64,000 nt of DNA from Flavobacterium sp. (GTDB taxonomy: Bacteria; Bacteroidota; Bacteroidia; Flavobacteriales; Flavobacteriaceae), in assembly GCA_018401995.1 (NCBI GenBank), contig JAGYJR010000005.1:1-64000 (forward strand), given 5' to 3'. Below the pieces are notes generated by a model. That model saw only the letters and a list, made by a program, of their open reading frames with translations. It was not told the DNA's origin and did no database searches. Below are positions 1,831 through 44,146 of this stretch, piece after piece. The position numbers and the translations under genes are program-made. The stretch's first letter is position 1. Each line of letters begins with the position of its first letter.

Positions 1831-1832
1831 AT

Positions 1833-2465: not shown

Positions 2466-2640
2466 TTACAAGTTCAAAATTCAAGGGCAATTGCTTTCGC
2501 TTCGCTCAAGGGTTAGCCTACTTCGTAGGAGATTCCTAGCAAGCTCGGAAAGACAAAATCAAGAGCAAGTTCAAATTCAAATTCAAGTTCAAAATTCAAC
2601 AACAAACTATAAACAACAAACTATAAATTTGAAATCTTAA
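2455..2640. repeat. Low-complexity TTCAAATTC-type intergenic repeat tract
   Basis: Iterated (aa)attcaaattcaa / acaacaaactataaa motifs; only spurious ORF overlaps. Confidence 0.6.
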
Positions 2641-2690
2641 AATCCAATATCCGAAAATCTAACTTCTAACTTCTATTCTCTATGTTCTTT

Positions 2691-3530
2691 CTAAGGCAAA
2701 TACTTCTTCTCAAAATTCGGTTTACGTTTCTCTAAAAATGCATCTCTTCCTTCTTTAGCTTCGTCTGTCATGTAAGCTAAACGCGTGGCTTCACCGGCAA
2801 AAACTTGCTGGCCAACCATACCATCATCTGTTAAATTCATGGCGAATTTTAGCATTTTAATTGAGGTTGGTGATTTGGCTAGAATTTCTTGCGCCCATTC
2901 GTAAGCCGTGTCTTCTAGTTCCGCATGTGGAATTACAGCATTTACCATTCCCATTTCAAAAGCTTCTTGTGCGGAATAATTTCTTCCTAAAAAGAAAATT
3001 TCTCTTGCTTTCTTTTGTCCAACCATTTTAGCTAAATACGCCGAACCATAGCCGCCATCGAAACTTGTTACATCAGCATCGGTTTGTTTGAAAATGGCGT
3101 GTTCTTTACTCGCTAAAGTCAAATCACAAACCACATGTAGCGAATGTCCGCCACCAACAGCCCAACCCGGAACCACACAAATTACCGCTTTTGGCATAAA
3201 ACGAATCATGCGTTGTACTTCTAAAATGTTTAATCTGTGGTAACCATCTTCACCTACGTAACCTTGATGTCCGCGGGCTTTTTGGTCGCCACCGCTACAA
3301 AAACTCCAAATGCCGTCTTTTGAACTTGGCCCTTCAGCAGACAATAAAACAACACCAATTGACGTATCTTCTTGTGCGTCGTAAAAAGCTTGAATTAATT
3401 CTTTGGTAGTATTTGGTCTAAATGCATTTCTTACATCAGGTCGGTTAAAAGCGATTCTAGCTACTCCATTGCATTTTTTGTATGTAATATCTTCAAATTC
3501 TCTAACGGTTTTCCATTCGATTTTGCTCAT
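2691..3530 (-). CDS. menB: 1,4-dihydroxy-2-naphthoyl-CoA synthase
   Basis: Crotonase fold with MenB-typical WSFCSGGDQKARG, VVPGWAVGGGHSLHVVCDLTLAS, TDADVTSFDGGYGSAYLAKMVGQKKAREIFFLGR. Confidence 0.95.
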   Translation of the reverse strand: MSKIEWKTVREFEDITYKKCNGVARIAFNRPDVRNAFRPNTTKELIQAFYDAQEDTSIGVVLLSAEGPSSKDGIWSFCSGGDQKARGHQGYVGEDGYHRLNILEVQRMIRFMPKAVICVVPGWAVGGGHSLHVVCDLTLASKEHAIFKQTDADVTSFDGGYGSAYLAKMVGQKKAREIFFLGRNYSAQEAFEMGMVNAVIPHAELEDTAYEWAQEILAKSPTSIKMLKFAMNLTDDGMVGQQVFAGEATRLAYMTDEAKEGRDAFLEKRKPNFEKKYLP

Positions 3531-3636
3531 TTCTTAAGTATTTAATAGATGATTGTAAATTATGTTAAATATAAATTTCCGTAAAAATAATTCATTTTTT
3601 GCATTATATTGCAAGACGAATCTTAAAACTTGGTAA

Positions 3637-4083
3637 GTGAAAATTTATCCTTCTGCAAAACATAAGCTAACTATCTGGTTGTATTGGTTTTTGGTGGTTT
3701 TTATGTTGGTCATTCTTATTTTTCCAATTATGGAAGAAGGATTTACTTTGCCAATTATTTTGCTAAGTATTTTTCATTTGGTATTCATTATTTTCTTTAT
3801 CACTATTTTGTTTTCTACCAATTATACCATTCAAAACGAAGAATTACTGTGTAAATCTTCTGTTTTTCGATCGAAAATTAAAATAAAAAATATCAGAAAA
3901 ATTGAATTTCACAAAGGCATTATTGTTCCTGTGACTTGAAAATTAGGATTGAGTCATGAAGGAATTATAATTACCTACAACAAATACGATGATATTTATA
4001 TTTCGCCCGAAAATCTTGAACTTTTTATCAAAGATTTACAAGCTATCAACCCCAATATCGAAATTATCCAAGCCAAAAAATGA
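3637..4083 (+). pseudogene. PH-domain protein interrupted by an in-frame TGA at 3937-3939
   Basis: ORF 3637-3939 (GTG start) continues in the same frame after TGA as KLGLSHEGIIITYNKYDDIYISPENLELFIKDLQAINPNIEIIQAKK*, ending in an ATGA overlap with the next gene. Confidence 0.75.
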
Positions 4084-5246
4084 TAAAATTTGTCCCCACT
4101 CTGCTTCTACTACTACTTGTTGCTTTTTCTTGTCAAACCAAAGAAGAACCTAAAGAAATTGCGCACTATATTGAACCTATTCCAGTAAATCCGTATGAAG
4201 TTAAATTTGAAAAACTTCCAAAAGAATATGTAGCAGAAAAAGAGCAAAAAATTGCCCAATTTTACCAAGATGTTATTGCTAACGATGGCTTTAGTGGTGG
4301 TTTTTTGGTAGCTCAAAACGGTGAAATTATCTACGAAAATTATAACGGTTACATCAATTACAAATCCAAAGAAGAAATGACAAATGAAACTCCCATTCAT
4401 TTGGCATCTATAAGTAAAGTGATTACAGCGGCTGTAATTTTACAATTGGTAGATGAAAAACTTTTGGATTTAGACCAAAAAGTAACATCCCTATTTCCTG
4501 AATTTCCGCATGAAGCTATTACCATTCGCATGTTATTAAATCATCGCAGTGGGTTGCCGCATTATTCCTATTTTTCTGAAAATAAAAACATTTGGAACAG
4601 TAACAAAACATTGACCAATCAAATAATTCTAGATTTATTAAGTACCAAAGGAATTCCGTTAGAATATAAACCCAATACTCGATTCGCTTATTGTAATACC
4701 AATTACGCACTTTTGGCATTGGTAGTAGAAAAAATAACCCAACTCAATTTTAAAACTGCGTTAAAAAAACGCATTTTTGAGCCATTGGAAATGCATCATT
4801 CATTTGTTTTGGATTTCGAAAATCAACAAGAATTAGCTAGTTTGACTTACAAAAGTACATGGCAAAAAGTTCCTTTAGACCATTTGGATGCTATTTATGG
4901 TGACAAAAATATCTACTCTACACCAAGAGATTTATTGAAATTGGATTTAGCTATGTATTCCGATAATTTTATTTCTAAAGCTACAAAGGAAGAAGCTTTT
5001 AAAGGCTACAGTTACGAGAAAAGAGGTGTGAAAAATTACGGTTTAGGCATTCGTTTGAATGAATTTGATAATGGAGAAACTATTCATTACCACAACGGTT
5101 GGTGGCACGGTAATACTACTTCATATGTCACTTTGAAAAAAGAAAAAGTTACGATTATAACATTGGCTAACAAATACACCAAAAAAGTGTACCAAGCCAA
5201 GCGTTTAGCTTCACTTTTTGGCGATTATCCGTTTGAATTGGATTAA
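4080..5246 (+). CDS. Serine hydrolase / beta-lactamase family lipoprotein
   Basis: Lipobox (LLVAFSCQ), SxxK (SISK), YxN (YCN), C-terminal HNGWWHG motif. Confidence 0.9.
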   Translation: MIKFVPTLLLLLLVAFSCQTKEEPKEIAHYIEPIPVNPYEVKFEKLPKEYVAEKEQKIAQFYQDVIANDGFSGGFLVAQNGEIIYENYNGYINYKSKEEMTNETPIHLASISKVITAAVILQLVDEKLLDLDQKVTSLFPEFPHEAITIRMLLNHRSGLPHYSYFSENKNIWNSNKTLTNQIILDLLSTKGIPLEYKPNTRFAYCNTNYALLALVVEKITQLNFKTALKKRIFEPLEMHHSFVLDFENQQELASLTYKSTWQKVPLDHLDAIYGDKNIYSTPRDLLKLDLAMYSDNFISKATKEEAFKGYSYEKRGVKNYGLGIRLNEFDNGETIHYHNGWWHGNTTSYVTLKKEKVTIITLANKYTKKVYQAKRLASLFGDYPFELD

Positions 5247-5531
5247 TTATTCGGGGAAAAATTCAAAAGCAAAAAATCGAATTAAGAAGAACATATTAAT
5301 CAATGTTAACAAAAGTGAAATGATTAATCGTTTACTGATTTCGTTACGGTCAACAACTAATGCAGCTAAAATTAACAAAGGAAGAAATAAAGACAAAATC
5401 CAAACTGGAATCCAAATTACAGCAAATTCAATTTCGAATAAAGTAATTTTAGCACCATTGGTAAACATGGCGATTACCAATAACAAAAAAGAAAGCAGAC
5501 TTAGTGCTAAATAAATATTCTTTTTGTTCAT
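5247..5531 (-). CDS. Small membrane protein of unknown function
   Basis: Hydrophobic 94-aa ORF; opposite-strand ORF 5218-5514 looks spurious. Confidence 0.6.
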   Translation of the reverse strand: MNKKNIYLALSLLSFLLLVIAMFTNGAKITLFEIEFAVIWIPVWILSLFLPLLILAALVVDRNEISKRLIISLLLTLINMFFLIRFFAFEFFPE

Positions 5532-5534
5532 AAA

Positions 5535-6383
5535 TTATACCAAGTAAATTCCGTCATCTTTGATTTCGATTTGTTTTTGTTTGTATAGTGTTCCAATGGC
5601 TTTTTTGAAGGTTTTTTTACTCATCTTTAGAACCGTTTTGATATCTTCAGGATGTGAATTGTCATTTAGACGCAAAAAACCTTTGTTGGCTTTTAATTCG
5701 TCCAAAATAAGCTGTGCCGAAGGCTCAATAGCTTCCACACCTAATTTTCTAAGTGAAACATCTAATTTGCCATCAGGTCGCACTTGTTTGATATACCCTT
5801 TCATTCGCAAACCTGGCTTAATGTCGTCATAGACTTCATTGGCATAAGCTAAACCACGGTGTTTTTCGTTGATAATTACATTTATTCCAGCGTCAGAAAT
5901 GTGCGAAATAATTAGGTTTACTTCTTCACCATTGGCATAATTAGCTTCTTCTTTGTCTAAAAATTGTTGGGTTTTACTTGAAGCAACTAAACGCTTGGTT
6001 TTCTCATCCATGAAACAATACACCAAGTAACGTTTGCCTTCTTGCATTGGTCTTGCTTGCTCTCTAAACGGAACAAACAAATCTTTTTCCATTCCCCAAT
6101 TTAAAAAAGCACCAAACTCGTTGATATAATTCACTTTTAAATGAGCAAATTCATTCAATTTAACATAAGGTTTTAAAGTAGTAGCAACGGGTCTTTCCTC
6201 ATGATCTAAATAGACAAAAACGGTTAGGCTATCTCCTATTTGAAATTCTTTGGGTACATATTTATTGGGTAATAACACATCGTTAGTGCCATCACCTAAA
6301 AATAATCCAACTTTTGTATCTCTTAAAATTTCTAATGTATTGTATTCGCCAATTTGCATATTCGGTGTGCTTTTAAAGTGCAA
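5535..6383 (-). CDS. S1-like RNA-binding protein, CvfB family
   Basis: Tandem S1-like domains and C-terminal winged helix (DVSLRKLG..., MSKKTFKKAIGTLYKQKQIEIKDDGIYL). Confidence 0.9.
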   Translation of the reverse strand: MHFKSTPNMQIGEYNTLEILRDTKVGLFLGDGTNDVLLPNKYVPKEFQIGDSLTVFVYLDHEERPVATTLKPYVKLNEFAHLKVNYINEFGAFLNWGMEKDLFVPFREQARPMQEGKRYLVYCFMDEKTKRLVASSKTQQFLDKEEANYANGEEVNLIISHISDAGINVIINEKHRGLAYANEVYDDIKPGLRMKGYIKQVRPDGKLDVSLRKLGVEAIEPSAQLILDELKANKGFLRLNDNSHPEDIKTVLKMSKKTFKKAIGTLYKQKQIEIKDDGIYLV

Positions 6384-6392
6384 AAGTACAAT

Positions 6393-7106
6393 TTAAAAGT
6401 TGATTATTTTTAAATAGATATTGATATAGTATAGTCCCGTTAGCAAAAAGGTAATTCCTGCAACTTTTCGCATTATTTTTTCAATTTGAGTTACCATTTT
6501 AAAATAATAGCTCAATTTTTCTATACTATAAGCAATAACTAAAGCAAAAAGTATTACAGGTAATCCTGTTCCAATCGAAAATACAACAGGTAAAACTAAA
6601 CCTAAATCAGAAGCCAAAGTCATTGGAATTAACATAGCAAAAAACAAGGCGCCACTATAAGGGCAAAAAGCCATTGCAAACAAAGCTCCCATTAAAAAAG
6701 AACCTAGTAAACCTTTGGTTTTAAATTGTTCTGAAAGTTGGTTTGTTAAATTATTTGTCCTTCCAAAATTCAACTTTATCACATCGAGCATAATTAATCC
6801 AATAACAATCATAATTGGACCAATAAACTTCTCTCCATTTCCTTGAAAAAGTTTCGCCACTTGAAATTTACTTAATCCAAAATAAATTAATGCACCAATT
6901 AATGTATACGAAAAAACCCTTCCAAAAGTATAGAGCAATCCGCTTAAAACTACTTTTCTTTTGCTTGTAATATTCTTCGAAATAAATGCTGTTGCTGTAA
7001 TATTTGTTGCTAACGGACAAGGACTAACCGCTGTGAGTAATCCTAAAGCAAAAGCAGCCAAAATAGGAAAATCTTGATTCTGCGCTAATTGGTTTAAAAA
7101 ATCCAT
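6393..7106 (-). CDS. ArsG-like / CcdA-type permease (organoarsenical efflux family)
   Basis: GLLTAVSPCPLATNITA and AFCPYSGALFFAMLIP CcdA-like motifs; adjacent to ArsF-like gene. Confidence 0.75.
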   Translation of the reverse strand: MDFLNQLAQNQDFPILAAFALGLLTAVSPCPLATNITATAFISKNITSKRKVVLSGLLYTFGRVFSYTLIGALIYFGLSKFQVAKLFQGNGEKFIGPIMIVIGLIMLDVIKLNFGRTNNLTNQLSEQFKTKGLLGSFLMGALFAMAFCPYSGALFFAMLIPMTLASDLGLVLPVVFSIGTGLPVILFALVIAYSIEKLSYYFKMVTQIEKIMRKVAGITFLLTGLYYINIYLKIINF

Positions 7107-7517
7107 TTATTTAATAAATTCGTTGACTTTTTGGTTCAATTCCAATTTGAATTTTTCTTCGTCACCAGCGTTCATGAAAGCAAAATCTGTTAAATCTAAT
7201 TTAGCATTTGTTTTTGGATTGTATAAATACAAAGCCGTTCCTGTAGCTTCAAATGCTGTTGCTATTTTCTCGTTTTTTGCATCATCTACATTGACTAATT
7301 TGAATTCCAATTCTGGATGACTTTTTAATGTTTCCAATGTCAGTGCTTCAATTTTATTACAAGTCATACATCTGTTTTCCGAATGGAATTGAATTACGAC
7401 TGGAGATTCAAAAAATGTGGTTTCATTAGTAGTTGAAAGTTGGTTAGATTCGGTTGTTTCTTTTTTACACGATTGCAAAACAAACAACAAAACGGATAAA
7501 ACAAGTATATTTTTCAT
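7107..7517 (-). CDS. ArsF-like thioredoxin-fold lipoprotein
   Basis: Lipobox LQSCKK; VIQFHSENRCMTCNKIEALTLETL; likely start MKNILVLSV at 7517 rather than 7586. Confidence 0.75.
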   Translation of the reverse strand: MKNILVLSVLLFVLQSCKKETTESNQLSTTNETTFFESPVVIQFHSENRCMTCNKIEALTLETLKSHPELEFKLVNVDDAKNEKIATAFEATGTALYLYNPKTNAKLDLTDFAFMNAGDEEKFKLELNQKVNEFIK

Positions 7518-22433: not shown

Positions 22434-22829
22434 GGGGTCGACTGGTTTTGACAGCGAGTGGAATTGATTAGTAAGCACGTCGAGCATTGTACTTTTTGCT
22501 CGTAAATCCAAAGGTACAAACCTATAAACGGCGAAAATAATTACGCTTTAGCTGCTTAATCTGAATTATAGTAAGATTTGCCTAGTTCCGACCAGGTCGG
22601 AAAGCTAGATTCTCCTCAAAAGCCTTGGTTTATGGCGCTTGATTCAGGAGAACCGTAAATGTAAACCTAGAGAAGGTAATGCTTTGAATCCTTCTTGACA
22701 TTAATAAAGCTAAGCTAAAAGTGGTTGTTTCAGGCCTTGCTTTTAGTCGAAAATCCAAGTTGAAACTAAGCGTGTAGAAAGCTCTTCGATTGCTTGTTTG
22801 GACGAGAGTTCGATTCTCTCCGACTCCAC
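22434..22829 (+). ncRNA. ssrA: tmRNA
   Basis: 5' GGGGTCGACTGGTTTTGACAG and 3' GAGAGTTCGATTCTCTCCGACTCCA; tag frame GGC GAA AAT AAT TAC GCT TTA GCT GCT TAA (GENNYALAA*) at 22530-22559; GGGGUCG/CGACUCC acceptor pairing. Confidence 0.97.
22816..22829 (+). repeat. att-like direct repeat, left end of element (within ssrA 3' end)
   Basis: CTCTCCGACTCCAC, identical to 44111-44124. Confidence 0.9.
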
Positions 22830-22832
22830 TAA

Positions 22833-22864
22833 AAACCCTGTAAAGTACTAATTTTACAGGGTTT
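22833..22864 (+). terminator. Intrinsic terminator just inside the left end of the element
   Basis: aaaccctgtaaa-gtactaat-tttacagggttttttatttt. Confidence 0.8.
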
Positions 22865-26650: not shown

Positions 26651-29600
26651 TTAATTATACTTCTTAAAATTCTCTGCCTGTTCAAAAATTTCTTTATACA
26701 CTTCGTCCCTATCAACTGGGGGGTAATCATTTTCTGCTAAGAGAATTATGAGGTCTACCTTAAGTTCTGCTTTAATATCATCGCGCTTACTCCAATCCGT
26801 GTATTTTGCTTTGTCATCAACTATCTTTTTTACTTTTTGAGCAAGTGCAATTAACTTGTCATTTGGATAACTGAAATCATATTTAACCGCTAAAGCTTTT
26901 AAAATATCGTAAAAGGCTTTTTCTTCAAAGTCAATACCAAAATCTTTGAAGGAATCTTTTTCTTTTTTAAGCGCATAATACAAATCGATAATTTCATCAG
27001 TAAAGTCTTCTAATACTTCGCTTCGTAAAACATCGCTTTCTTTGCGTTCATTATATTTATCTACAATGGATTGTAAACGTTTTGAAAAATCAATTCCTGT
27101 GATTTTATTAATCTTTTTAACGTCATCAATGGCTTTCGCTAAAAGCTTTTGCAATAGTTTAATTTTGGTATTAGGTAATTTGATTTTATCAATTTTAGCC
27201 ATGTAATCATCCGAAAAAATATCAATTTCGGTTTGACTATCATCTCCTAATTTAAAAATTTCTTCTACACCATCACTCTCAATTGCATCTTGAAGCATTT
27301 GCTTCACACGATTATTCATTTGAGCGGTATCTGGTGCAACTCCTTTTGTTAATTTGAATACTATGGAGCGAACCGCCAAATAAAAATGGATTTCATCTCT
27401 TTGCGTTTCAGTAAATGCACCACTTCCAGAACAAATATCATATGCCGATTTTAATCGTTTTACAATGTACATAAATCGTTTTTCCAACTCTTGTGTCAGT
27501 TGTACAAATTCAGCAGCTTTATTTAGTGTTTTTAGTTGTTCTAAAGGAACTCCAGAAAAATAGCCTGAGGTATCAAACTTGTGAAATAATTTACCCAGTA
27601 AATCTAACTGGTCTTTAACCACAACAATCGATTGCTCAATATCTTCAATATTTTGACCATCTGCATTGTTGTATTGTGCCATAGCCATATTCATCTGCTT
27701 TTTAATGCCTATGTAATCTACAATTAACCCTTTTTCTTTATTCTCAAATTTTCGATTAACACGAGAAATGGTTTGAATCAAGTTATGTCTTTGAATTGGT
27801 TTATCAATATACATTGTATCTAAAAATGGCACATCAAATCCTGTTAGCCACATATCTACTACGATAGCAATTTTAAAATTAGATTTTTCATTTTTAAATT
27901 GACGGTCTAATTCTTTGCGGTCATCTTTAGTTCCTAGCGAATTATACAAGTCTTCCTCATCATCTTTTCCTCTGGTCATCACCATTTTGATGCGTTCCAT
28001 TGGTTTTATTTCTTTTTTGTCTTTATCGGATAACTCAACACCATCTGCAGCAATTTTCACTTCTCCCCATTCTGGTCGTAAGGCTAGAATGTTTTTATAC
28101 AATTCGTATGCAATTGGTCGGCTACTACAAATAAACATGGCTTTGCCACGAACTGTTGCACCTTCAGCAATTCTATTTTCGTAATGGGTAACAAAGTCTT
28201 CGGCTACGGTTTTCAAACGAGTTGGGTCGCCTATGATGGCATTCATTTGTGCCATCGCTTTTTTACTTTCTTCTATTTGATTTTCATTACTACCTTCTTC
28301 TGCACATCGATTGTAGTAGGCTTCAATTTCTTCCAATTTGTGATTGTTCAATAAGACTTTTGCAGCTCTTCCTTCATACACAATACGAACCGTAATTTCA
28401 TCTTTAACCGATTCGTTCATCGTGTAAGCATCCACAATATCTCCAAACACATCAATGGTAGCATCAATAGGTGTTCCAGTAAAACCAACATAAGTAGCAT
28501 TTGGTAACGAATCGTGTAAATATTTAGCAAAACCAAATGTTTTTTTAACACCCTGTTCTGAAACGACTACTTTTTGATCTAAATTGGTTTGACTTCTGTG
28601 TGCTTCGTCCGAAATACAAATGACATTGGTTCGGTCTGTTAGTAATCTTGTGTCTTCAGTAAACTTATGAATGGTCGTTAAGAAAACACCACCGCTATTT
28701 CTTCCTTGTAGCAATTCTCTTAAATGCGTTCTGCTTTCTACACTAATAATCGATTCGTCACCAATAAAACCTTTTGCATTGGTAAATTGACCTGATAATT
28801 GATCATCTAAATCGGTACGGTCTGTAATAATTACAATTGTCGGACTTGAAAAATGAGTACTTCTCATTAATAAGCGACTCAAATACAACATGGTGTAACT
28901 TTTTCCACAGCCTGTTGTACCAAAGTAGGTTCCTCCTTTACCATCACCCAAAGGTTTTTGATGGTTTTTTATATTTTCAAAAAGTTTAACAGCCGCATAA
29001 TATTGCGGATAACGACAAACTATTTTTTCATTCTTTTTAGAACTATCAGGTAAATAAATAAAGTTTTGAATAATATCTCGTAATCGCTTACGGTTAAACA
29101 TCCCTTGAATGAGTGTAAACATAGCATCTATACCATCCACTTCATTAGGCATGCCTTCAATTTTTCTCCAGGCGTAAAAGAATTCATAAGGCGCAAAAAA
29201 GGAACCTGATTTGGTATTCACACCATCACTAATCACACAAAAAGCGTTGTATTTGAATAACTCAGGAATATCTCTTTTGTAACGTGTGGTTAATTGCACA
29301 TACGCATCATGGATGGTTGTGTTTTCTTGTATTGCAGTTTTAAATTCAAACACCACTAATGGCAATCCGTTGATGTATAAAATCAAATCAGGAATACGCA
29401 TTTCGTATCCTTTTATGGCTAATTGATTCACAATTTTATACGTGTTGTTATCTTTTTCAGAATAGTCAATCAATTGAATGAATATATCTTTTTGATTGCG
29501 GTCTTCACGTTTTAACAAGAAACCATCACTTACCATTTTCATGAAAACTTTATTACTTTCATACAAATCAGAAGAGGGTAGACGTTCCAAATCACGAATT

Positions 29601-29836
29601 ATTGAATCTACTTCAATATCCGTAATATAATCCTTAGCGTAGTTGGATTTCAAATAGTGTCGCAAATCCGCATCTATCAACACTTTTTCAGTGGCAATAT
29701 GACCAAAAGTAGTTGGTGGTTCTTCCACACCTTGAAACTCATTTTTACGCACTTCACCACCTACAAGATGTGTCATTTGCTCTTCTTGTAATAATTGGAT
29801 AAAGGCTTGTTCTAATTGTGCTTCTGTGAATTTCAT
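26651..29836 (-). CDS. hsdR: Type I restriction enzyme R subunit
   Basis: Nuclease-domain region LVVFEFKTA, helicase motifs TTGCGKSYTMLYLSRLL, DEAHRSQ, GFTGTPI, QTISRVNR. Confidence 0.95.
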   Translation of the reverse strand: MKFTEAQLEQAFIQLLQEEQMTHLVGGEVRKNEFQGVEEPPTTFGHIATEKVLIDADLRHYLKSNYAKDYITDIEVDSIIRDLERLPSSDLYESNKVFMKMVSDGFLLKREDRNQKDIFIQLIDYSEKDNNTYKIVNQLAIKGYEMRIPDLILYINGLPLVVFEFKTAIQENTTIHDAYVQLTTRYKRDIPELFKYNAFCVISDGVNTKSGSFFAPYEFFYAWRKIEGMPNEVDGIDAMFTLIQGMFNRKRLRDIIQNFIYLPDSSKKNEKIVCRYPQYYAAVKLFENIKNHQKPLGDGKGGTYFGTTGCGKSYTMLYLSRLLMRSTHFSSPTIVIITDRTDLDDQLSGQFTNAKGFIGDESIISVESRTHLRELLQGRNSGGVFLTTIHKFTEDTRLLTDRTNVICISDEAHRSQTNLDQKVVVSEQGVKKTFGFAKYLHDSLPNATYVGFTGTPIDATIDVFGDIVDAYTMNESVKDEITVRIVYEGRAAKVLLNNHKLEEIEAYYNRCAEEGSNENQIEESKKAMAQMNAIIGDPTRLKTVAEDFVTHYENRIAEGATVRGKAMFICSSRPIAYELYKNILALRPEWGEVKIAADGVELSDKDKKEIKPMERIKMVMTRGKDDEEDLYNSLGTKDDRKELDRQFKNEKSNFKIAIVVDMWLTGFDVPFLDTMYIDKPIQRHNLIQTISRVNRKFENKEKGLIVDYIGIKKQMNMAMAQYNNADGQNIEDIEQSIVVVKDQLDLLGKLFHKFDTSGYFSGVPLEQLKTLNKAAEFVQLTQELEKRFMYIVKRLKSAYDICSGSGAFTETQRDEIHFYLAVRSIVFKLTKGVAPDTAQMNNRVKQMLQDAIESDGVEEIFKLGDDSQTEIDIFSDDYMAKIDKIKLPNTKIKLLQKLLAKAIDDVKKINKITGIDFSKRLQSIVDKYNERKESDVLRSEVLEDFTDEIIDLYYALKKEKDSFKDFGIDFEEKAFYDILKALAVKYDFSYPNDKLIALAQKVKKIVDDKAKYTDWSKRDDIKAELKVDLIILLAENDYPPVDRDEVYKEIFEQAENFKKYN

Positions 29837-29890: not shown

Positions 29891-30886
29891 TTAGTCGTTT
29901 TTAAAATTTTCCATTATTTCTTTCATCCTTTCTAATAGGGTTGAAAAAGATTTTGAATCCCCAATAATCATATTCTCTTGCATTACTTTATAATCTTGTT
30001 CCCATTCTTTGCTTACTGCATCTGGAGGAATAATTTGTAAGCTTTTTCTATTATGATTGTAGTACGTTATTCCTCGCAATGGTGTAATTGTTTTTCTATG
30101 CTCTACAATGTATTCAAAAAGTTCTCCATCATTGTAAGCATTTGTTGCATATTCAGTATCCATTAGTCTGTCTAAATCATATAAATGTCGTGATAACCGT
30201 TCACTTCTTATGGCTTCAATTGGCTTTGAAAACTCTTCATGTAATAGCAATACTTTTTCTATAAAAGTTCTAGTAGGCACTACAACTTTTACTCTTGTTG
30301 GTTTTTGAGCAAATGGTAAATGAACGTATTCGTAATCAATAAACGAAATCACTTCTCTTTCTTCTGCAGGTTCTGTTAAAGAACGAGCACCCATTTCTAT
30401 TAAAACACGAGGTTGGATATACGGATTGTCGTTTGGAATTACAGCATTGTAATACACTACTAAGGTATTTGGATCACTAGTATCATCCACTTTATCGTTG
30501 TATTTAATAGTGTACATATCTGGAGCAATACCAAGATTTGAAAGTTGATTTATCAACTCTACTCTAAAATCATTTATGATAAACGAACCTGATGCTTCTC
30601 TTAATCTTTTAACTGCCATTTTTGAAGGTAATTCTTCAAAACCTAAAAACTTCCTATCAATTATTAAATCGACATCTTCCGAAAATCGATTGATTACATT
30701 GTAGGCTTTACTTAATGAGGTACCACCTTTAAAAATAATATTTGTAGCATATTTGGATTGAAAAATAGCTTGTAATAAGATACAAACCCACCCATCCTTT
30801 TCTACAGCATAAGCAGGCAATCCTGTTTTAACAGCAGTTTGAGTGATTATATTTTGCTTTTGCTCTGTAGTAAGGTTTACCCACAT
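29891..30886 (-). CDS. AbiEii/AbiGii-type nucleotidyltransferase toxin
   Basis: NIIFKGGTSLSKAYNVINRFSEDVDLIID. Confidence 0.9.
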   Translation of the reverse strand: MWVNLTTEQKQNIITQTAVKTGLPAYAVEKDGWVCILLQAIFQSKYATNIIFKGGTSLSKAYNVINRFSEDVDLIIDRKFLGFEELPSKMAVKRLREASGSFIINDFRVELINQLSNLGIAPDMYTIKYNDKVDDTSDPNTLVVYYNAVIPNDNPYIQPRVLIEMGARSLTEPAEEREVISFIDYEYVHLPFAQKPTRVKVVVPTRTFIEKVLLLHEEFSKPIEAIRSERLSRHLYDLDRLMDTEYATNAYNDGELFEYIVEHRKTITPLRGITYYNHNRKSLQIIPPDAVSKEWEQDYKVMQENMIIGDSKSFSTLLERMKEIMENFKND

Positions 30887-30889
30887 AGT

Positions 30890-31486
30890 TTAGTTTCTTA
30901 ATTCCTGAATTCTTTTCTGTACCCAAACTGGCGCAAACTTGAGTTGCGATTTTAATGTTTCATTATCTAATTTCAAGACAAAGTGTTTTAATTTTTGCAA
31001 GTGTAATTCCGTTACTTTGTCTTGTCCTATCTCTTTTAATGCCTGAGTGATAAGAATTAGTAAATGGTCTTTAATAGCTAAATTACGTGGAACAGTTTTC
31101 TTAAACTGTATTGTTCGATTTCCAATGGTTATAACTCTTTGTGCGCCATCTGTCAAATACACTACTTTTAAAGGAATTTGCGTTGTGATTCCTAATTGAT
31201 ACAAAGCCAATGAACCTGTTGGCGCTATGCGTGCTTTGTCTCGTTTGGCAATTTCTAAAGCAATTTCTTCTGTAGTTGGGTATAGTGTGCCTAATAATTC
31301 ATCTTTTTTGGGTACTAAATAAATACCCTGTGCCAAACGCTCTAATAAGCCTTCTTTTTCTAAACGTGACAATACCTTTCGGATGTTCTCTGAAGAACCA
31401 AATTTTACAAAATCATCTGCGAAAAAAATTTTACCCTTAGCAGATTTTTTAATCTTTAATTCTATCTGATTATGTGAGGATTGCAC
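30890..31486 (-). CDS. AbiEi-like (DUF6088-type) antitoxin/regulator
   Basis: N-terminal wHTH then YPTTEEIALEIAKRDKARIAPTGSLALYQLGITTQIPLKVVYLTDG; 3 nt upstream of the toxin gene. Confidence 0.85.
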   Translation of the reverse strand: MQSSHNQIELKIKKSAKGKIFFADDFVKFGSSENIRKVLSRLEKEGLLERLAQGIYLVPKKDELLGTLYPTTEEIALEIAKRDKARIAPTGSLALYQLGITTQIPLKVVYLTDGAQRVITIGNRTIQFKKTVPRNLAIKDHLLILITQALKEIGQDKVTELHLQKLKHFVLKLDNETLKSQLKFAPVWVQKRIQELRN

Positions 31487-31563: not shown

Positions 31564-33105
31564 TTAGGTTTTTGTATTAAAAAGTTTTTCATCAATAAAA
31601 TCAAAAATATTTTCAAAATTTTTAATTGTCGAATCTTGTAACTTTTCCTTTGTTATTAAACCTTTATCAACCATTGAGAAAAAATCGCGTGCAAAAATTA
31701 TTTTCTTTTTTCCAATTATTTCAGATGGTTTTTTCTTACTGTTTAAACTTATTTTTGAATTTAACAAGTTTAAATCTGAAAGAGAAAACATATCTTCAAC
31801 TTCTTTAAAATCTATAATTTTAACTTTTTCATTTATTTCATTTTCATCATTAAAAAAAACATGATTTAAAAGTTCTGCCTTTGTAGCTAATGGGTTTTCA
31901 CCATTTTCCATTATTAAAACCCATTCTAAACCATATCCTATACAAAAAGAAATTAAAGGGTAAAGTTTTGATGATTTAACACCTATACCTGGTACAAATT
32001 TGTATTCATTCTTTCTATTTAAAATTTTAGCCATTGCATTATAATACCAAAAATCCGATAGTCCTTCAAGTATTATATTTTTCCTAGAGAGTATTGAAAA
32101 CTCCTTTAATGGCTCTAATCCCATTGCTTCAGAAATAGGTTGCAAAGCATCTCTCTTAAAACTTGAATCTATTTTAGAGGAGGTTAAACCTTCAACAATT
32201 GTACCTTCCTTTTCAGTATTTAAAACTAATCCAATATTGTGTAGCTTATCCAACTCAATTAATGAAGGAGAATGTGTTGAATATATAATTTGATGACCAG
32301 ACTTAGATAAATTTTTAAAAACTTGCATCATATCATTACACGCTTTAACATGTAGATTTTGTCCTGGTTCATCAAAAAGAAAAACAATGTTACTATATTT
32401 TTCTGAAGCCTTTAATTCTAACCATAGAGACAAAAACCATATCAAACCCTTACTTCTTCTCCTAGGTTGCAAATAAACTCCGTCTTTTGACTTTATATAA
32501 AATAAAACTTTTTCTTTACCTGTTTCATCATAAGTTAATTCAAAATTTATTTCTGCTTGATTTTCTCCTGCAATTTTTTGTTTCCAATCCTTCTGAAAAG
32601 TTGCAGTAATTGAATTATTATATTTTTCAATATTCCCCTTTTTTAAAACTGGAGATTTTTTTGATAATGAAACAAAATCTACACCTATAATTTCTTCAAA
32701 GTTTTGTACAGCTTTTATTCCCTTTTGTCCTGCATCGCCTTTTATTAATTCATCGATGTAAATTTCATCTGGAAGTAAATCTGCAATATTGTCAAAAAAA
32801 ACAATATTGGGACAGGATTTCCATATACTTAAGATAATTTCTGATTTTTGCTTTGTTAAATCAACAATAGGACTTAATGTTTTAACAATTGTTGATAGAG
32901 TATCTTCGTTGTTTTGAGGTAATCCAATTATAGCTGATTTAATTATGTCAAAAGCCTGATTGTTAATCTCTATATTAAATTCATTAGAATTATCATCTTC
33001 AAAATCAATAGTTTTAGTTAAAGTGAATTCTTTCAAATTTGTTAATTTCTTTTTATCAAAAAAACTAATTATAGGTACATTTTTTCTTTTTTCTTCATCA
33101 ACCAA
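31564..33105 (-). CDS. OLD-family ATPase (AAA + TOPRIM), N-terminus incomplete
   Basis: Walker B-like NIVFLFDEPGQNLH, IIYSTHSPSLIELD, TOPRIM-like KNIILEGLSDFWYYNAMAKIL; no Walker A; frame open upstream only to a TAG near 33169, no ATG. Confidence 0.8.
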   Translation of the reverse strand: MVDEEKRKNVPIISFFDKKKLTNLKEFTLTKTIDFEDDNSNEFNIEINNQAFDIIKSAIIGLPQNNEDTLSTIVKTLSPIVDLTKQKSEIILSIWKSCPNIVFFDNIADLLPDEIYIDELIKGDAGQKGIKAVQNFEEIIGVDFVSLSKKSPVLKKGNIEKYNNSITATFQKDWKQKIAGENQAEINFELTYDETGKEKVLFYIKSKDGVYLQPRRRSKGLIWFLSLWLELKASEKYSNIVFLFDEPGQNLHVKACNDMMQVFKNLSKSGHQIIYSTHSPSLIELDKLHNIGLVLNTEKEGTIVEGLTSSKIDSSFKRDALQPISEAMGLEPLKEFSILSRKNIILEGLSDFWYYNAMAKILNRKNEYKFVPGIGVKSSKLYPLISFCIGYGLEWVLIMENGENPLATKAELLNHVFFNDENEINEKVKIIDFKEVEDMFSLSDLNLLNSKISLNSKKKPSEIIGKKKIIFARDFFSMVDKGLITKEKLQDSTIKNFENIFDFIDEKLFNTKT

Positions 33106-33139: not shown

Positions 33140-36100
33140 TCTTTATAATTCGATGTTATCTAAAATACGTTGACCATAAAATAAAAGTTATACGTTGTGA
33201 CTGATACTTAAAGTTTATTCCGTCATTTGTTTTAATAAGTAGTTGGCCTGTTTAACCAAAACCTATTGAATCATTAAATCTCAACTTTGCTCCATTCCAA
33301 CAAACGGCTTGTACTCTATATTTTGACAAAAAAGGTTTTAGTTTTGAAAACCCTAATTTTGCCATCTTAATTAATATAAGTTTGTTACGTCATTTTAATC
33401 TTTAAAATCTAGTTCGCGATAATCAAATATCTTGATCTACTCGGATAGATAGGAATAGTATTTTCAATGTTCTTTATTTTCTTATAAAATCTAATCACTT
33501 TGTTGCGTACCAGAGCTGATAAAAAACTTTTTCAAATATTTTAAAAATCTTCATATGTTTATTTGATAATATTTCTTCAAGTTTCTATTAATTCTGAATC
33601 TCCTGGAATCTAATTTAGTTTCTCCCATCATCATGCTTGTAAAATCAGTTCAACTAGTATATATTGGGTAGGAAGGAACTCACATTCTAAATATATTTCA
33701 TCTGAACAATTCCAGAAACCATTATATATCAATCCTAAAATTCAAGTTGATAAAATGCTTATGGTATCCTAAAAGCTCATAACAAATCGTTTAAATTCTC
33801 TATCCACTGATAATTCAACAATTTTCTTTGAATTAATTCTCTAATTCAAATCTACTTTTGGTCATCAAAAATTAATTTTTAAATATCTAACATTCACTAA
33901 GAATTTTAGATCAATGCTATAATTTTTTTCTCCCCAATGTAAAAATTAACCATCATTTATAATAGTTGTAAGTACTGAATGTCTATTTGTAATAGCTACT
34001 TTATTTTAATTCAGTTAAAATATTAGATGAAATTTCTTTTGATTAACTTTGTGTTTCTTAACTCTCAAATCTTGTCATCTATAATAATATATTTTAGATT
34101 TGCCTTTGCAATGATTTATCTAAATTTATTTCATCTAATAAAAATGATTTGTTTTTGTGAATAAAAATTCTTTCCTTTCAATTACTTACTCTTAAATTTA
34201 ACGATTATTTAATAAATCAGTATTGTTTTATGTATCTAAATTTTATTTAAATAAACTGGGACAACGTTTTAAATAAATATTTGTATAGAACTTTACAATC
34301 AGAACCAGTTTAAATGTTTTTTATACTTGTTTTCTAAGTAACTAAACAAATTGATTATGTTTTTCAAAATTTGGAATAAATTGCATTTTGATAGATTAAA
34401 AAGATATATTTGAGCACTTATCTTGCCATTTATCTTCACTATCCATTGAATTCTGTTTCAAAAATCATTAATTGAATATCTTAGAAACAACTTATTAAAT
34501 CAACTTCTACTGTGCATTCTTATCTCTATGTTGAAATTAGCACATTTTCTATATGACATGTAAAAGAAAATTCTTCAGTCATTTCTTCAATTGAAAGCAT
34601 AGTCTTTATCTTTTCTCAAGTTCAACAATATTTGGTGAATTTTAATATTAATTCTTTAATGGTTATAAGTTTATAAAAAATATTGTTTTTCTTAAATCTA
34701 AGTTTAATTTTCAAACTAATCAATTGTTACAATCAGAATTAAATATAATTATCTTTCTTACTTTTTGTCTTTTAAATTGTATCAATAAACACTATCGTGG
34801 ATTTGTAAAACATTCAAGTTCATTGCTTTCTTAATATCATAACATAAATTATATAACTAGGTCAAGAGTTGATAGCTCTTCTTTTTCTTTAATATTGCAT
34901 CAAATTCAGAATTTGTTGCAATAAACTTACCACTTTAAAACTGGCTTTTGAGTCGCATGTTCAGAATCTAATTTTTCATTATTTGAAAAAAATATCATAT
35001 CTAATTTTTCAATATCTTCATCAATTCAATTGTTTTAGTCATCTGGATTTTCATTATGGTAACATACATCGTTTCCCAATCTGAATCAAAAGTTTATTAA
35101 CTAAGTACGATGTAATGGTTGTTTTAGATAATTATTAATCTTATAGTAATAGTTCCATTTTTTCTTTCTTCAATAAACTCATCTGTTGATTTAAGAAGGA
35201 ATAAAACAATTTTTTTAAATCAATTCATTCTTTCCATAATTATTTTAAATATTAATCATTACCAGATCCATTTCTCATAACTTTAAGCCTAACAACAAAT
35301 TGTAGTCAGCTTGAAATATAATTCCATCTAGTTTTTGTGTTTCTAACTTTTTATAAATTTGGAAATTTTCAATAAAATGGGTACTATTAATAGGCACTGG
35401 ACTTACAATTCCTGTTCCTTCTTCTTTTTAACAAACAATTCATCAATATCATTTTATAAAGTAGGGTTTTGAATTTTCTTTTTATATGCATCCTAAAAAA
35501 TGATGTTTTATTTCGTCAGACCATTCTAATAAATTCTTGATAATATCAATTTTTTTTCACTAAGTTTCTATTCACCGTCATCTCAACAACAATTTTTCAA
35601 TCCCCTAGTATTTGGTTTTACTTTGATTTCTTAAAGATGCTGATTTAAGCCTCAATTTCCTATCCCAAATAATTATTAAATCTATTGAACAGGACCATGA
35701 AAAACATAGACTCACCATTTTTACATTGATAATTTCATCCAGACTGTTCTTTCTTTATACATCTGTTACTATTTGAGTCATGCAATATTTTCCATTTTAA
35801 TTTTAATTATTTATTTTAACTTTTCAAGATTGGCTTTATTTAAACTATCAAATAATATTTATCTTCTCCCTTCAATTGAAATAAGCTCAAATCATTGACA
35901 ATGTATCTGACTAAATCACATCTTACCGTCTAAAATCTTTGTTTTTCAAATTCCCAACTTCCACCCTCAGGTATTTCTTTTCTCATCTAATTCTTCGCCC
36001 TTAATCATTTTACCATTACTTTTATGAAGGCAAATTCTTTCAAAATTTCCCAGCTCGATGTGACAAAGGAAGTTCTTTAAATCAATTTCATCTTCAAACC

Positions 36101-36600
36101 AATGTTGTAAATCGTTTGCGCCGTTTCTTCCAGTTTAATAATCAATTGGTTGTTTATTACCCAATACAGTTTTTGAATGGTGTTGTATTCTCTGACAATT
36201 TCTTATTTGTTTTTCAATTGAGGTATAATAATTCATATCACATTTTCAATCAGTAAAAAATTTCTCTAACATCTTCCACAATGTAGCCAACATATCTGTC
36301 AGTCAATTCTCTTTCTAAACCACATCTTTTAAAATATTCGGGCAATAAGATTTTCATCTTTAACTCCAAAACAGTGTAATAGCTTGATGATATCATGCAT
36401 GTTCATCACTCAAATTCAATAAATCAACTGGTAGATTTTTATCTCGACCTACACTAACAGGTCACATAAGCTAATTGGTTTTCTTATCAATTTTTACGAC
36501 ATATCTGTTCAACGAAATATTAGCAACTGAGGACATCAAAACTTTTTCTCAAACTAAAATTAATTTATATTTTAAATCCCTATTTCTGATGTTAACTTCT
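33140..36600 (-). pseudogene. Frame-disrupted region including an hsdS-like remnant and other former genes
   Basis: No ORF >=60 aa in the track, but minus-strand coding fragments persist in changing frames, e.g. LYWVINNQLIIKLEETAQTIY / HWFEDEIDLKNF near 36.08-36.17 kb (HsdS-like linker). Confidence 0.6.
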
Positions 36601-36624
36601 TGTATGTAATCCTCCTAAAAACGC

Positions 36625-38193
36625 TTATAATTCGATTGGCATACCTAATTCTTTAAACACGGTTAATAAATCGTTTTTTGATTGCGTTTCTGCTTTCAAT
36701 AGTTCAGCAAAATCGGTTTGTAAACCTCTCATTTTATCTTCAAAATCAATACTTTCATCACGATTCACAAATGTGATGTACTTGCTTGGTACTAACGAAT
36801 AATCTTTCGCTACAAGTTCATCAATAGAAGCTGCATAACAAAACTCGGGTACATCTTCATATTTAGTTAAATCTGTTTGCCAATTGTGGTAAGCTTCCGT
36901 AATTTCAATGATATTGTCTTCAGAAAATTGAATAAACTTTTTTTCAAATGGAATTCCAACTTCTCTCAAATCCATGAACAATATTTCGTGCTGTCTGTCA
37001 CGGTAATTTCTAGTGGCATCAGGCAATTGTACCGTTCTCGCTTTTTTATTTTTATTTAAGATCCAAAGAGTCACACTAATGTTTGTGGTGTAAAACATAT
37101 TTTGCGGTAAAATCACAATTGCTTCTACCAATTCGTTTTCAATTAGTTTTCTTCTTATTTTGTATTCTTCTCCACCACCTGAAAGCGCTCCATTTGCCAA
37201 GATAAAACCTGCCACACCATTTTCAGAAAGTTTCGCTACCATGTTTAAAATCCAAGCGTAATTAGCATTACTGGTTGGTGGTACATCATAGCCTCTCCAT
37301 CGTGGGTCGTCGGTTAGTTCATCACTAGCACGCCAATCTTTTTGGTTAAAAGGTGGGTTCGCCATAATGAAGTCGGCTTTCAAATCGGGGTGTTGGTCTT
37401 TGCCAAAAGTATCAGCAGGCACATCTCCTAAGTTAGCGGCAATACCTCTAATAGCTAAGTTCATTTTGGCTAGTTTATACGTCGTAGCCGTATATTCTTG
37501 TCCGTAAATGGAAATCTCTTTTTTGTTTCCGTGGTGGTTTTCAATAAACTTAATACTTTGCACAAACATCCCACCAGAACCACACGCAGGGTCATAAATA
37601 ACGCCCTTGTAAGGTTCAATCATTTCAGCAATTAGGTTTACAATGCTTTTTGGGGTGTAGAATTCGCCTTTTCCTTTTCCTTCCGCTAAAGCAAACTTGC
37701 TCAAAAAATATTCATACACACGACCCACAATGTCTTGCTGTTTGTCTTTTATAGTGTCAATATTGTTGATGGTATCTAACAAAGCCGCTAGCTTGCTCAC
37801 GTCCATATTCAAACGAGAGAAGTAATTATCAGGCAAAGCGCCTTTTAAAGCGGGATTATTTTTTTCTATGGTGTGTAAAGCGGTATCAATTTTCAATGCA
37901 ATATCCGCTTGCTTAGAATTTTCAATAATAAACGACCAACGTGATTCTTCTGGCAAGTAAAAAATATTGGACATGTTGTAGAATTCCTTCATCTCAAGGA
38001 ATTTCTCTTTATTTTCGGCAATTAGCTCTTTTCTGCGCTCTTCAAACTTATCACTAGCAAATTTTAAGAAAATTAAACCTAATACTACGTGCTTATACTC
38101 AGATGATTCCACGGTACCACGCAATTTATTTGCGGAATCCCATAGTGTTTCTTCGATGCTTTTTTCTTTTTTTGCTTTTACTACTTTTGCCAT
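36625..38193 (-). CDS. hsdM: Type I R-M DNA methyltransferase M subunit
   Basis: GEFYTPKSIVNLIAEMIEPYKGVIYDPACGSGGMFVQ, ANPPFNQKDW. Confidence 0.96.
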   Translation of the reverse strand: MAKVVKAKKEKSIEETLWDSANKLRGTVESSEYKHVVLGLIFLKFASDKFEERRKELIAENKEKFLEMKEFYNMSNIFYLPEESRWSFIIENSKQADIALKIDTALHTIEKNNPALKGALPDNYFSRLNMDVSKLAALLDTINNIDTIKDKQQDIVGRVYEYFLSKFALAEGKGKGEFYTPKSIVNLIAEMIEPYKGVIYDPACGSGGMFVQSIKFIENHHGNKKEISIYGQEYTATTYKLAKMNLAIRGIAANLGDVPADTFGKDQHPDLKADFIMANPPFNQKDWRASDELTDDPRWRGYDVPPTSNANYAWILNMVAKLSENGVAGFILANGALSGGGEEYKIRRKLIENELVEAIVILPQNMFYTTNISVTLWILNKNKKARTVQLPDATRNYRDRQHEILFMDLREVGIPFEKKFIQFSEDNIIEITEAYHNWQTDLTKYEDVPEFCYAASIDELVAKDYSLVPSKYITFVNRDESIDFEDKMRGLQTDFAELLKAETQSKNDLLTVFKELGMPIEL

Positions 38194-38394: not shown

Positions 38395-40632
38395 TTATAG
38401 CATTTTAATGTAATTACCAAAACTTGATTGTTTTAAATACTTCCCTATACAAGATTTTAAAAAACTGTCTGCAGATCGCTCTTTTATATTAAATTTTTTA
38501 GCAATTTCTATTGCTTCTTTTCTTTGAAAAGTATCAGGTAAAGCATCAAAAAAATGTTTTTTATTTTGACCTGATTTAAAATCAACATGTTCGGATTGTT
38601 TTGGTAGGTTTGCAAACATTATAACACTGTGTTGGATATAGGTTTTTACTAATGTTAAAGCTGTTTCAAAATCAACATCTAGACAATATATCTCTTTATT
38701 ATAGTCATTAGAACTATATTTTCTTATCGCTGTAAATATCATACATAATCGATACAATATCAACCCTAATCGTTTAACAATACTTTGAGCATCTTCACTA
38801 ACAAAAGTGTTTATTTTTTCTAAAAATGAGCTAAAAAAAGGATTAAATCTTTCCCATTGTTCATCCGTTAAATGTAGAATCATTTCATCTTTTTCAAAGA
38901 ATTCAACTAACTTCAAAACTTGTTTTGATTGCGTAGTAAAATACGCTGTCAAATTTACAGGATTTCCTTTTGGGGAAGGGTCTAGCCAAATTGCATCAGT
39001 TTTAAAAACATAAAATATAAATCTACTAAACAGTCCATCTTCAGCAGATGATATAATATTAAACACTTGTTTAGGTGTTCCAGACAAGGCAACAGAAAGT
39101 TGTGGATTATTTACTTCAACAAATTCTCCATCAGTTTTTCGACTTACAGATATTTTTTCGTGATGAAAAGATTTTCGCAATAAATCGGAGTATGTACCCC
39201 AATCATTCTTAAAAGCCTGCCCCATAGTATCAGCTTCTGTTTCACAAATAATACCCTTTCCTTCATTATGATCCAAATGTTGAATGATTTTTGCGTTACT
39301 TGTGTTTGCAGGTATGTATACAACTTTAAATTGGGGTGCTAATGGAAAATCTTGATTTTCGTCAAGTTTATTTTTTGCTTTTAATAATTTATAAGCCGAT
39401 AATTTTTCTTCATATTCCTTTTTTTTATCAATTGAATCAGTAATAATTTTGGTATGATATTCATCAGCTAATGCTTTTGCAAACTTTAAAGAACCCTTTC
39501 CTGAAGCTGCTGGAGCTAAAACAAATGAAAATAAATTAGGATATACTACACTGCCACTATAAAGTCCTGATACATTAGGCAAACATCCTGACAATATTGC
39601 CAAAGCACCTGTTAGAAAAGTGTCTCTTTCCCTTTTTTGAAGAAAGGCTTTACAACTTTCAAACAGAATAGGTGGCAAATTTTCATAAACAGATTGCGGG
39701 ATTACAGGTGTAGATTTTAAACAATCTTCATACTCATCATAAATATTTTCTTGCGATTCAAAATTTATTTTTTTTTCATTTTGCATATTTGCAAACTTTG
39801 CAAACTTTGCAAAGTCTGCAATTTGATTTTTATAAACGTTTTTTACAGTTGCTTTTACTTCATTTGAATTTAAATCGAAGTTATTGAGGCAAAAGTTTAA
39901 AGTGTCATTTTCGGAAATTCCGAATTTGTTTGCATTACATGAAAATAAAAAAACAAAGTTGTTTCTGTTACCTTCATGGTAATTTTCTTTTTGTTCTGTA
40001 AATTTCAAACATTCATCAAGGAGATCATCATCAGAAATTGTAGAATTATTTTTCTGTTGAACATCGTTATTATTTTTTCTACCTTCAACTCTCACATCAA
40101 AAACTTCGGCTTTCTCATTTAAATATAATTCTGAATCAGAAGACACAAAACATAATCGGGTTATGTCTTTACATTTTGCATCAAAATAATAACCAGATAA
40201 ATCTTTATAGAAGTTTGCCACTTGAATATATGCAATTGTATGCTCTTCAGCGTTTGTAGACACTTTAATGAATATTTTTAAGCCTTCTCCGCTTGGACTG
40301 ATAAAAGAGGCAAAGGTAAATTTACAATTATTAATAAGAGTTTTTAGTTTGAGTATTTCTGACTTTGGAATATTATCAAAATCCAAACAAATTATTTTAG
40401 AATAGGTTAGCAACATTTCCTTTGTTCTACTAGTTCCAAAAATTCCAGAAGCTGTAAAACCTTTAAGTTCTCTTTTAATTTCATCAGCTGCCCTATTATT
40501 GCCTTGGTGTAAAGCATAACGAATTGAATTAATTTCACTAATGTATTTTTCAGATTTAATTTCATTCAAAATATCCAAAATACTACTATCCAATATTTTT
40601 TTTCCAAAGTTCAGATAACTAGATACTATCAT
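38395..40632 (-). CDS. VirE-N (BT4734-like) / DUF3987 primase-helicase-like protein
   Basis: ICLDFDNIPKSEILKLKTLINNCKFTFASFISPSGEGLKIFIKV; PNLFSFVLAPAASGKGSLKFAKALADEY. Confidence 0.85.
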   Translation of the reverse strand: MIVSSYLNFGKKILDSSILDILNEIKSEKYISEINSIRYALHQGNNRAADEIKRELKGFTASGIFGTSRTKEMLLTYSKIICLDFDNIPKSEILKLKTLINNCKFTFASFISPSGEGLKIFIKVSTNAEEHTIAYIQVANFYKDLSGYYFDAKCKDITRLCFVSSDSELYLNEKAEVFDVRVEGRKNNNDVQQKNNSTISDDDLLDECLKFTEQKENYHEGNRNNFVFLFSCNANKFGISENDTLNFCLNNFDLNSNEVKATVKNVYKNQIADFAKFAKFANMQNEKKINFESQENIYDEYEDCLKSTPVIPQSVYENLPPILFESCKAFLQKRERDTFLTGALAILSGCLPNVSGLYSGSVVYPNLFSFVLAPAASGKGSLKFAKALADEYHTKIITDSIDKKKEYEEKLSAYKLLKAKNKLDENQDFPLAPQFKVVYIPANTSNAKIIQHLDHNEGKGIICETEADTMGQAFKNDWGTYSDLLRKSFHHEKISVSRKTDGEFVEVNNPQLSVALSGTPKQVFNIISSAEDGLFSRFIFYVFKTDAIWLDPSPKGNPVNLTAYFTTQSKQVLKLVEFFEKDEMILHLTDEQWERFNPFFSSFLEKINTFVSEDAQSIVKRLGLILYRLCMIFTAIRKYSSNDYNKEIYCLDVDFETALTLVKTYIQHSVIMFANLPKQSEHVDFKSGQNKKHFFDALPDTFQRKEAIEIAKKFNIKERSADSFLKSCIGKYLKQSSFGNYIKML

Positions 40633-41093: not shown

Positions 41094-41381
41094 TTATCTC
41101 TTATATCGTAAAGATTTTACTTCTTGAAGAGATTTCTCAATACTTTCATTAGTGATTAAAACTCTTTTCCCAAATTTTTTTCCATCTAAAATACCTTTGT
41201 CAATGTAATTGCGTATGGTCAAGATACTTACACTTAATTCCTTTGAAGCTTCTTTGATTGTGTAAAACTTTTTTCTTTCTTTTTCATTTTCTTTTTTACT
41301 GTAAATATTATTAACAGCTTTTGATACAGATGAATCTATTAAAGATTCTAACATTTCTTGTGTAGTAACTACTAATTTCAT
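41094..41381 (-). CDS. Excisionase-like HTH DNA-binding protein
   Basis: FYTIKEASKELSVSILTIRNYIDKGILDGKKFGKRVLI. Confidence 0.88.
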   Translation of the reverse strand: MKLVVTTQEMLESLIDSSVSKAVNNIYSKKENEKERKKFYTIKEASKELSVSILTIRNYIDKGILDGKKFGKRVLITNESIEKSLQEVKSLRYKR

Positions 41382-42718: not shown

Positions 42719-43970
42719 TTATACTACTTTTAATGTAATACCCATATCAAAAACTTCATCAACTGCTTCTTTAGTTTGTTCGTCGTCTACTTGGTAATAC
42801 TGGTTCAAAGTTTTCATGTCGGTATGTCCTGTTATTTTAGCAATAAGTTTATCACTTTTACCTTGTCTTTTCATCATTGTAATAAAAGTTCTTCTTGCTG
42901 TATGTGTTGTAATTCTATTGTAAAATTCAATATCTTCTTTTATATTTTCTTTTCCTCTTGTAGTTATTTTTTGAACCACATTTTTATATTCCAACTCTTT
43001 AAAAACTTCTTTGATGTATTCATTTTGCTTTTGATTAGCAATTAAAGGTAGTTTATAATCATACTTTTTTAAAATAAATTTTGATATGGAAGTTAGAGGA
43101 ATATTTCTTGCTGGTTTATTTGTGTCTTTGTCTTCTTTAAGTAAAATTTCAAAATCAGTAACGTTACTTTTAGAAATTAATGAAAGTTCTCCAAAACGCA
43201 TACCTGTAACGCATGCAAAAACAAAAACATCCCTTACTTTTTCAAGTTTACTAGATTCAAACTCATGTTCCATTAACTTCTTTAAGTCTTCCAATGTTAG
43301 TGCTATTTGATTTGTAATAACACGTTCTACTTTTTTAAATTCCATGAACGTATTATTAAAAGTGTACTTATTTTTTAAAGCCCAAAACATAAATGTTTTA
43401 AACAATCCTAAATTTCGAGCATAGGTATTGTTAATGTGCTTTAAATCATCCATACAATAAGAAGTAAACTCTCTGTGAAAAAAATGATTGATTTTACTAA
43501 ATGTTAATTTATATTTTCTTTTAATTTCGAAATCTTGTAAAATATTTTTGATATTGTTATATCTCTTAATTGTAGCTTCAGACCATTCTTTCCCCTTTTT
43601 CTTTTCTTCAACAAAAGTATCATATGCATCAAAAAAAATATTTTTCCCCTTTACAGTTTTTTTAAAATTTTCATCAAAAACTTTCTTTAAGACAACAGAT
43701 GTTAACGTTTCATTTATTCTTTGATACAATCCATAGGTTTCAAGGTATAAATCAGAATACCTATTTAATTGTAAATTAATTGTTGAAGCATTATTAGATT
43801 TTGAAGCTCCTTTCAAAAAGGCCTCTTAAAATTAAAATCCCATTCTTCAGGTTTAATTTTTTCACCTGTTGAATACTTAAATTTTTATTTTCCTCTTTAA
43901 AGTAAACTACAAAATATATTAATGTGCTTTCTTTAGATTTTGGTTCTTTTAATTGAAATGTATAATTCAT
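42719..43970 (-). CDS. Tyrosine recombinase/integrase, N-terminus frameshifted
   Basis: Catalytic region VTGMRFGELSLI, HTARRTFITMMKRQGKSDKLIAKITGHTDMKTLNQYY; ATG at 43970 gives MNYTFQLKEPKSKESTLIYFVVYFKEENKN, joined across two apparent 1-nt deletions to KYSTGEKIKPEEWDFNFKRPF and LKGASKSNN. Confidence 0.9.
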
Positions 43971-44110
43971 ACAGGGGACGTATTAGGGACGTTTTACTTA
44001 TATTTTAACATATTTTACAATACATAAACAAATATACAAAAATCTTAAAACCCTTATAAATAGTACATTATTAGTTATTAACAACTTATTAAAATATAAT
44101 TTATACAATA

Positions 44111-44124
44111 CTCTCCGACTCCAC
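44111..44124 (+). repeat. att-like direct repeat, right end of element
   Basis: CTCTCCGACTCCAC identical to ssrA 3' end. Confidence 0.9.
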
Positions 44125-44146
44125 AAAAACAAATTCAAAAGAGTAC

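Follow-up and report, generated by a model that had tools for sequence, protein, structure and literature searches.

A frame-scrambled stretch holding hsdS in a Flavobacterium type I restriction-modification locus very probably reflects uncorrected long-read sequence

The type I restriction-modification (RM) locus of the Flavobacterium genome studied here contains a scrambled minus-strand stretch (33160..36627) which, on the evidence of the assembled bases, is very probably uncorrected (unpolished) long-read sequence lying over an ordinary, intact operon. The window, by which we mean the whole 64-kb stretch of DNA that was analyzed, occupies positions 1 to 64,000 of contig C45, which is 124.6 kb long and belongs to a draft assembly of 2.37 Mb, 99 contigs and 82% completeness. 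On the minus strand, hsdM (36625..38193) is followed by the scrambled stretch, a gene for an OLD-like ATPase (31564..33105), genes for an AbiEi-type antitoxin (DUF6088; 30890..31486) and an AbiEii-type nucleotidyltransferase toxin (29891..30886), and hsdR (26651..29836); hsdM, hsdR and both AbiE genes are intact. Sequencing error is favored because indels are in excess, because frame changes drop abruptly to zero in hsdM and the ATPase gene and, above all, because other scrambled genes have intact copies in redundant contigs of this assembly.

HsdS in shifting frames downstream of hsdM

The sequence-only reading had reported that no ORF of at least 60 aa occurs between hsdM and the OLD-like ATPase, and indeed none is present inside 33149-36624. 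With ORF gaps defined by a 90-aa stop-to-stop cut-off, the gap at 33160-36627 (3468 bp) is the longest among the 859 kb sampled from the genome (0.86 Mb, plus some small contigs). ORF-less gaps of at least 1 kb number 12 in 0.86 Mb of this genome, as compared to one in RM loci, most of them from the same genus, that add up to 0.22 Mb. A codon model that permits frame changes yielded strongly positive scores for hsdM and the ATPase gene and negative scores for the stretch, placing no frame change in 1.57 kb of hsdM, none in 1.54 kb of the ATPase gene and several per 300 bp in between. Both edges of the stretch are sharp, with the model switching inside one 300-bp step on each side.

Two HsdS-like peptides had been reported from this region in shifting frames, and both were found, VINNQLIIKLEETAQTIY and HWFEDEIDLKNF, each in a frame of its own. 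In frameshift-tolerant alignments over about the first 700 bp of the gene, the HsdS proteins of two relatives matched the stretch with 128 identities in 205 codons and 34 frame changes (G283) and with 139 identities in 210 codons and 29 frame changes (G180), while the whole 421-aa HsdS of a third relative (G196) could be aligned through frameshifts to the minus strand from 36638 to 35475. The alignments scored 384 (G180) and 383 (G196), whereas none of 40 shuffles exceeded 77; the signal of the second half of the gene by itself is weaker, with a score of 56 and shuffles reaching up to 50. The minus strand thus matches intact HsdS along its entire length, and across full-length hsdS alignments to intact relatives give 29-41 frame changes in total. 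Based on these alignments and the shuffle control, we assign 35475..36640 (minus strand) to a scrambled hsdS, the gene for the type I specificity subunit, which by sequence comparison is present in full length in its canonical position following hsdM. As in 12 relatives, hsdS begins before hsdM has ended. The damage sets in within the last 20 bp of hsdM, where the window reads GGTATG and five relatives read GGTTATG, and a base is gained soon after. The Pfam family Methylase_S was not matched in the raw frames, nor at the locus in a six-frame search, as is expected because the frames are broken; judged by its sequence, the locus is the scrambled remains of hsdS and is not filed as a functional member of Methylase_S.

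The kind of damage was assessed at 192 nucleotide columns that are identical in 12 intact hsdS genes and cover the N-terminal half of hsdS. At these columns, the window shows 176 matches, 12 substitutions and 4 deletions, and about 20 inserted bases lie inside the gene (39 were listed, 19 of which belong to an unaligned tail). When each intact hsdS was compared with the other eleven in a leave-one-out control, the count was 0-11 substitutions, with no more than one deletion. The substitution rate at invariant columns accordingly amounts to 6% in the window versus 0-5% in intact relatives. Counted by eye on the alignment, about 20 indel events fall within 545 bp, that is about 4 per 100 bp or one about every 25 bp. 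During neutral decay of bacterial genes, substitutions are far more numerous than indels. At the invariant columns of the N-terminal half of hsdS, no predominance of substitutions over indels near the neutral level, as a genuine pseudogene would have it, was found: indels match or outnumber the excess substitutions and the encoded sense is kept. An ordinarily decaying pseudogene would show the opposite pattern, since here substitutions stay near their natural level and indels are frequent though absent from the relatives. The proposal that small indels are dense while the amino-acid sense persists is thereby borne out.

The ATPase side and the middle of the stretch

The stretch had been described as lying between genes. 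On the ATPase side, however, the damage appears to end inside the gene, because the ATPase ORF lacks some 75-95 N-terminal aa that intact relatives, with their 606-632 aa, possess. Judged by these relatives, the position of the edge inside the ATPase gene shows the edges to be without relation to gene function. The one named relative that was found for the ATPase is from Flavobacterium limnosediminis JC2902. The C-terminal five sixths of the ATPase are intact, and the missing or scrambled N-terminal part, including the Walker A motif, should reside in the scrambled bases. An alignment that placed a scrambled OLD N-terminus (KIRV-QN-K) at 33360 was dropped, as its anchored extension scored no better than shuffles.

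Between hsdS and the ATPase gene, about 2 kb (33400..35474, minus strand) form a cargo candidate with a weak codon signal (z of about 2 on the minus strand, none on the plus strand). A comparison of the codon-model read-through of this part with 400 congeneric genomes returned nothing convincing, and frame translations of the stretch matched no family in Pfam, PADLOC or NCBIfam for the middle 2 kb. The best cargo alignment, to the C-terminal end of a 1040-aa protein with a SIR2 domain from G283, was rejected as too weak (69-75 versus two shuffles at 48). The frameshift-aware search that had been suggested for recovering hsdS and its neighbor or neighbors was therefore successful for hsdS and did not retrieve what lies between hsdS and the ATPase gene. 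Similarly, the assertion that coding fragments persist on the minus strand is correct for hsdS, while the remaining 2.3 kb bear only a weak codon signal on that strand.

Only the hsdS part of the stretch is proven to be coding. The unrecognizable state of the middle 2 kb and of the ATPase N-terminus is as expected with a high error rate and variable cargo, which is no proof; neither is demonstrably coding, and real decay of these two parts is possible.

Redundant contigs and rival explanations

The decisive evidence for sequencing error is provided by redundant contigs within the same assembly. Contigs C4 and C18 represent one 7.4-kb locus with 93.8% identity and 223 gap openings. Over C4 positions 26-5226, C4 carries long ORFs resembling RNase Z, aspartate carbamoyltransferase (pyrB), PyrR and sigma-70 (named by eye) and C18 is largely ORF-less, with sigma-70 regions 2 and 4 detected by Pfam in different frames; over C4 positions 5426-7426 the roles are reversed, C4 being broken and C18 containing an intact UvrA-like ORF (also named by eye). 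Contigs C11 and C64 represent one 3.2-kb locus with a 0.55-kb island in C11 and identical flanks. Two strains are probably mixed here, because elsewhere the same two contigs differ by substitutions alone. The differences in the overlaps form islands of dense 1-3-bp indels, with 0.9-2.9 insertions, 1.9-4.9 deletions (about twice the insertions), 2.7-7.8 indels and 1.5-9.7 substitutions per 100 bp; in two comparisons of C4 with C18, 105 of 142 and 60 of 86 deleted bases lie in homopolymers. An island in C21 splits a FecCD transporter family over two frames. A clean duplicate of the hsdM-hsdS-ATPase locus was not present in the same assembly.

Residual indels of long reads are enriched in homopolymers and cause frameshifts and false pseudogenes (PMC12007338; PMC8103633). 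The stretch and the control islands bear the same signature. On the other hand, the published residual indels are scattered and of low density, whereas here sharp islands with several indels per 100 bp occur in otherwise clean contigs.

A real pseudogene block, in which loss of selection was followed by decay of hsdS, of the cargo and of the OLD gene at its 5' end, so that hsdM and hsdR were left without a specificity subunit, would agree with the higher A+T content of the stretch relative to its flanks and with the unrecognizable middle 2 kb and ATPase N-terminus, such as old decay would give. The system might also be dispensable, as a six-frame search revealed two further intact hsdS genes in the genome (C19:12362-13426 and C32:6794-7957; L110-L113). 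Such decay is nevertheless improbable, given that indels at least equal the excess substitutions at conserved positions with the amino-acid sense preserved, that hsdM, hsdR, the AbiE genes and the rest of the ATPase gene are untouched, and that other scrambled conserved genes of the assembly are intact in a second contig. The preference for uncorrected error over slow decay, already voiced in the sequence-only reading, is supported by the indel excess, the sharp edges and the C4/C18 and C11/C64 controls.

A localized hypermutation or diversification process that aims single-base indels at hsdS and the neighboring cargo is a highly improbable explanation, even though abrupt edges and the position at a specificity gene would suit a targeted mechanism. 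Variation in hsdS arises when target-recognition domains recombine or are inverted, and no process that diversifies this gene by indels is known; no dedicated machinery was recognized nearby, and the same pattern affects unrelated genes elsewhere, including complementary parts of overlapping contigs. Hardly any credence can be given to the view that hsdM and the ATPase gene are naturally separated by non-coding or RNA-encoding DNA. This would account for the absence of ORFs, but is already refuted for the hsdS part by a similarity to HsdS far above that of shuffled sequences, and twelve relatives have hsdS at the corresponding place.

With sequencing error as the preferred explanation, the real chromosome would carry intact hsdM, hsdS, one or more cargo genes (about 2 kb), the gene for the OLD-like ATPase, AbiEi/AbiEii and hsdR, and the assembly would have been filled at 33160-36627 by raw or poorly corrected sequence from long, nanopore-like reads, in which about 4 indels per 100 bp together with some substitutions would suffice to break every frame. 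The type I system thus probably possesses an hsdS that is intact in the organism, and the absence of a specificity subunit should therefore not be inferred or annotated as biology. In the same vein, neither the completeness nor the number of pseudogenes counted for this genome is reliable, because its redundant contigs carry scrambled stretches that include conserved genes. Further ORF-less stretches of 1.3-2.7 kb (L052:7394-10125, L077:967-2927, L051:10148-11793, L062:15154-16788 and L065:12833-14186), several with a codon signal on one strand, are probably the same artefact. More generally, apparent hsdM/hsdR systems lacking hsdS and truncated defence ATPases in metagenomic draft genomes can be artefacts, and overlapping contigs inside a single assembly can reveal the problem without recourse to reads.

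A probable integrative island and variable defence cargo

The locus resides in what is probably a 21.3-kb integrative island (22813-44129) at the 3' end of the tmRNA gene (ssrA, 22434-22829), with the type I RM system, AbiE and the OLD-like ATPase as cargo. The island is bounded by a 22-nt direct repeat (22813-22834 and 44108-44129, 91% identical), the second copy of which is a near-copy of the tmRNA 3' end and is adjoined by a gene for a phage-type integrase (42719-43816). A small HTH protein (41094-41381) and a DUF3987/BT4734-like protein (38395-40632) are also encoded.

In long-read metagenomes from lakes, among all defence genes it is those of type I RM systems that most often suffer deletions within populations (PMC9426551). 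That study reports structural variants, whereas the window shows a scrambled consensus. Strain variability of this kind would be expected to hinder polishing and, given the position in a 21-kb island, may explain why it failed here: the cargo of the RM locus would be strain-variable, most cells of the sample would lack the locus or carry another version of it, and polishing reads would not have mapped for want of a match. Such errors may cluster in defence islands if these are strain-variable and resist polishing.

The RM locus of the window resembles type I RM loci of Flavobacterium relatives (for example L040 and L021) in having the same gene order at both ends, with hsdS directly after hsdM and variable cargo before hsdR. 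It differs from them in that its hsdS and part of its cargo are unreadable, and the cargo itself differs among relatives. In Flavobacterium relatives (L021, L023, L025, L028, L040 and others), the interval from hsdS to hsdR forms a cassette of varying defence-like cargo, comprising SIR2-domain, RelA/SpoT-domain, metallophosphatase-STAND and OLD-like proteins.
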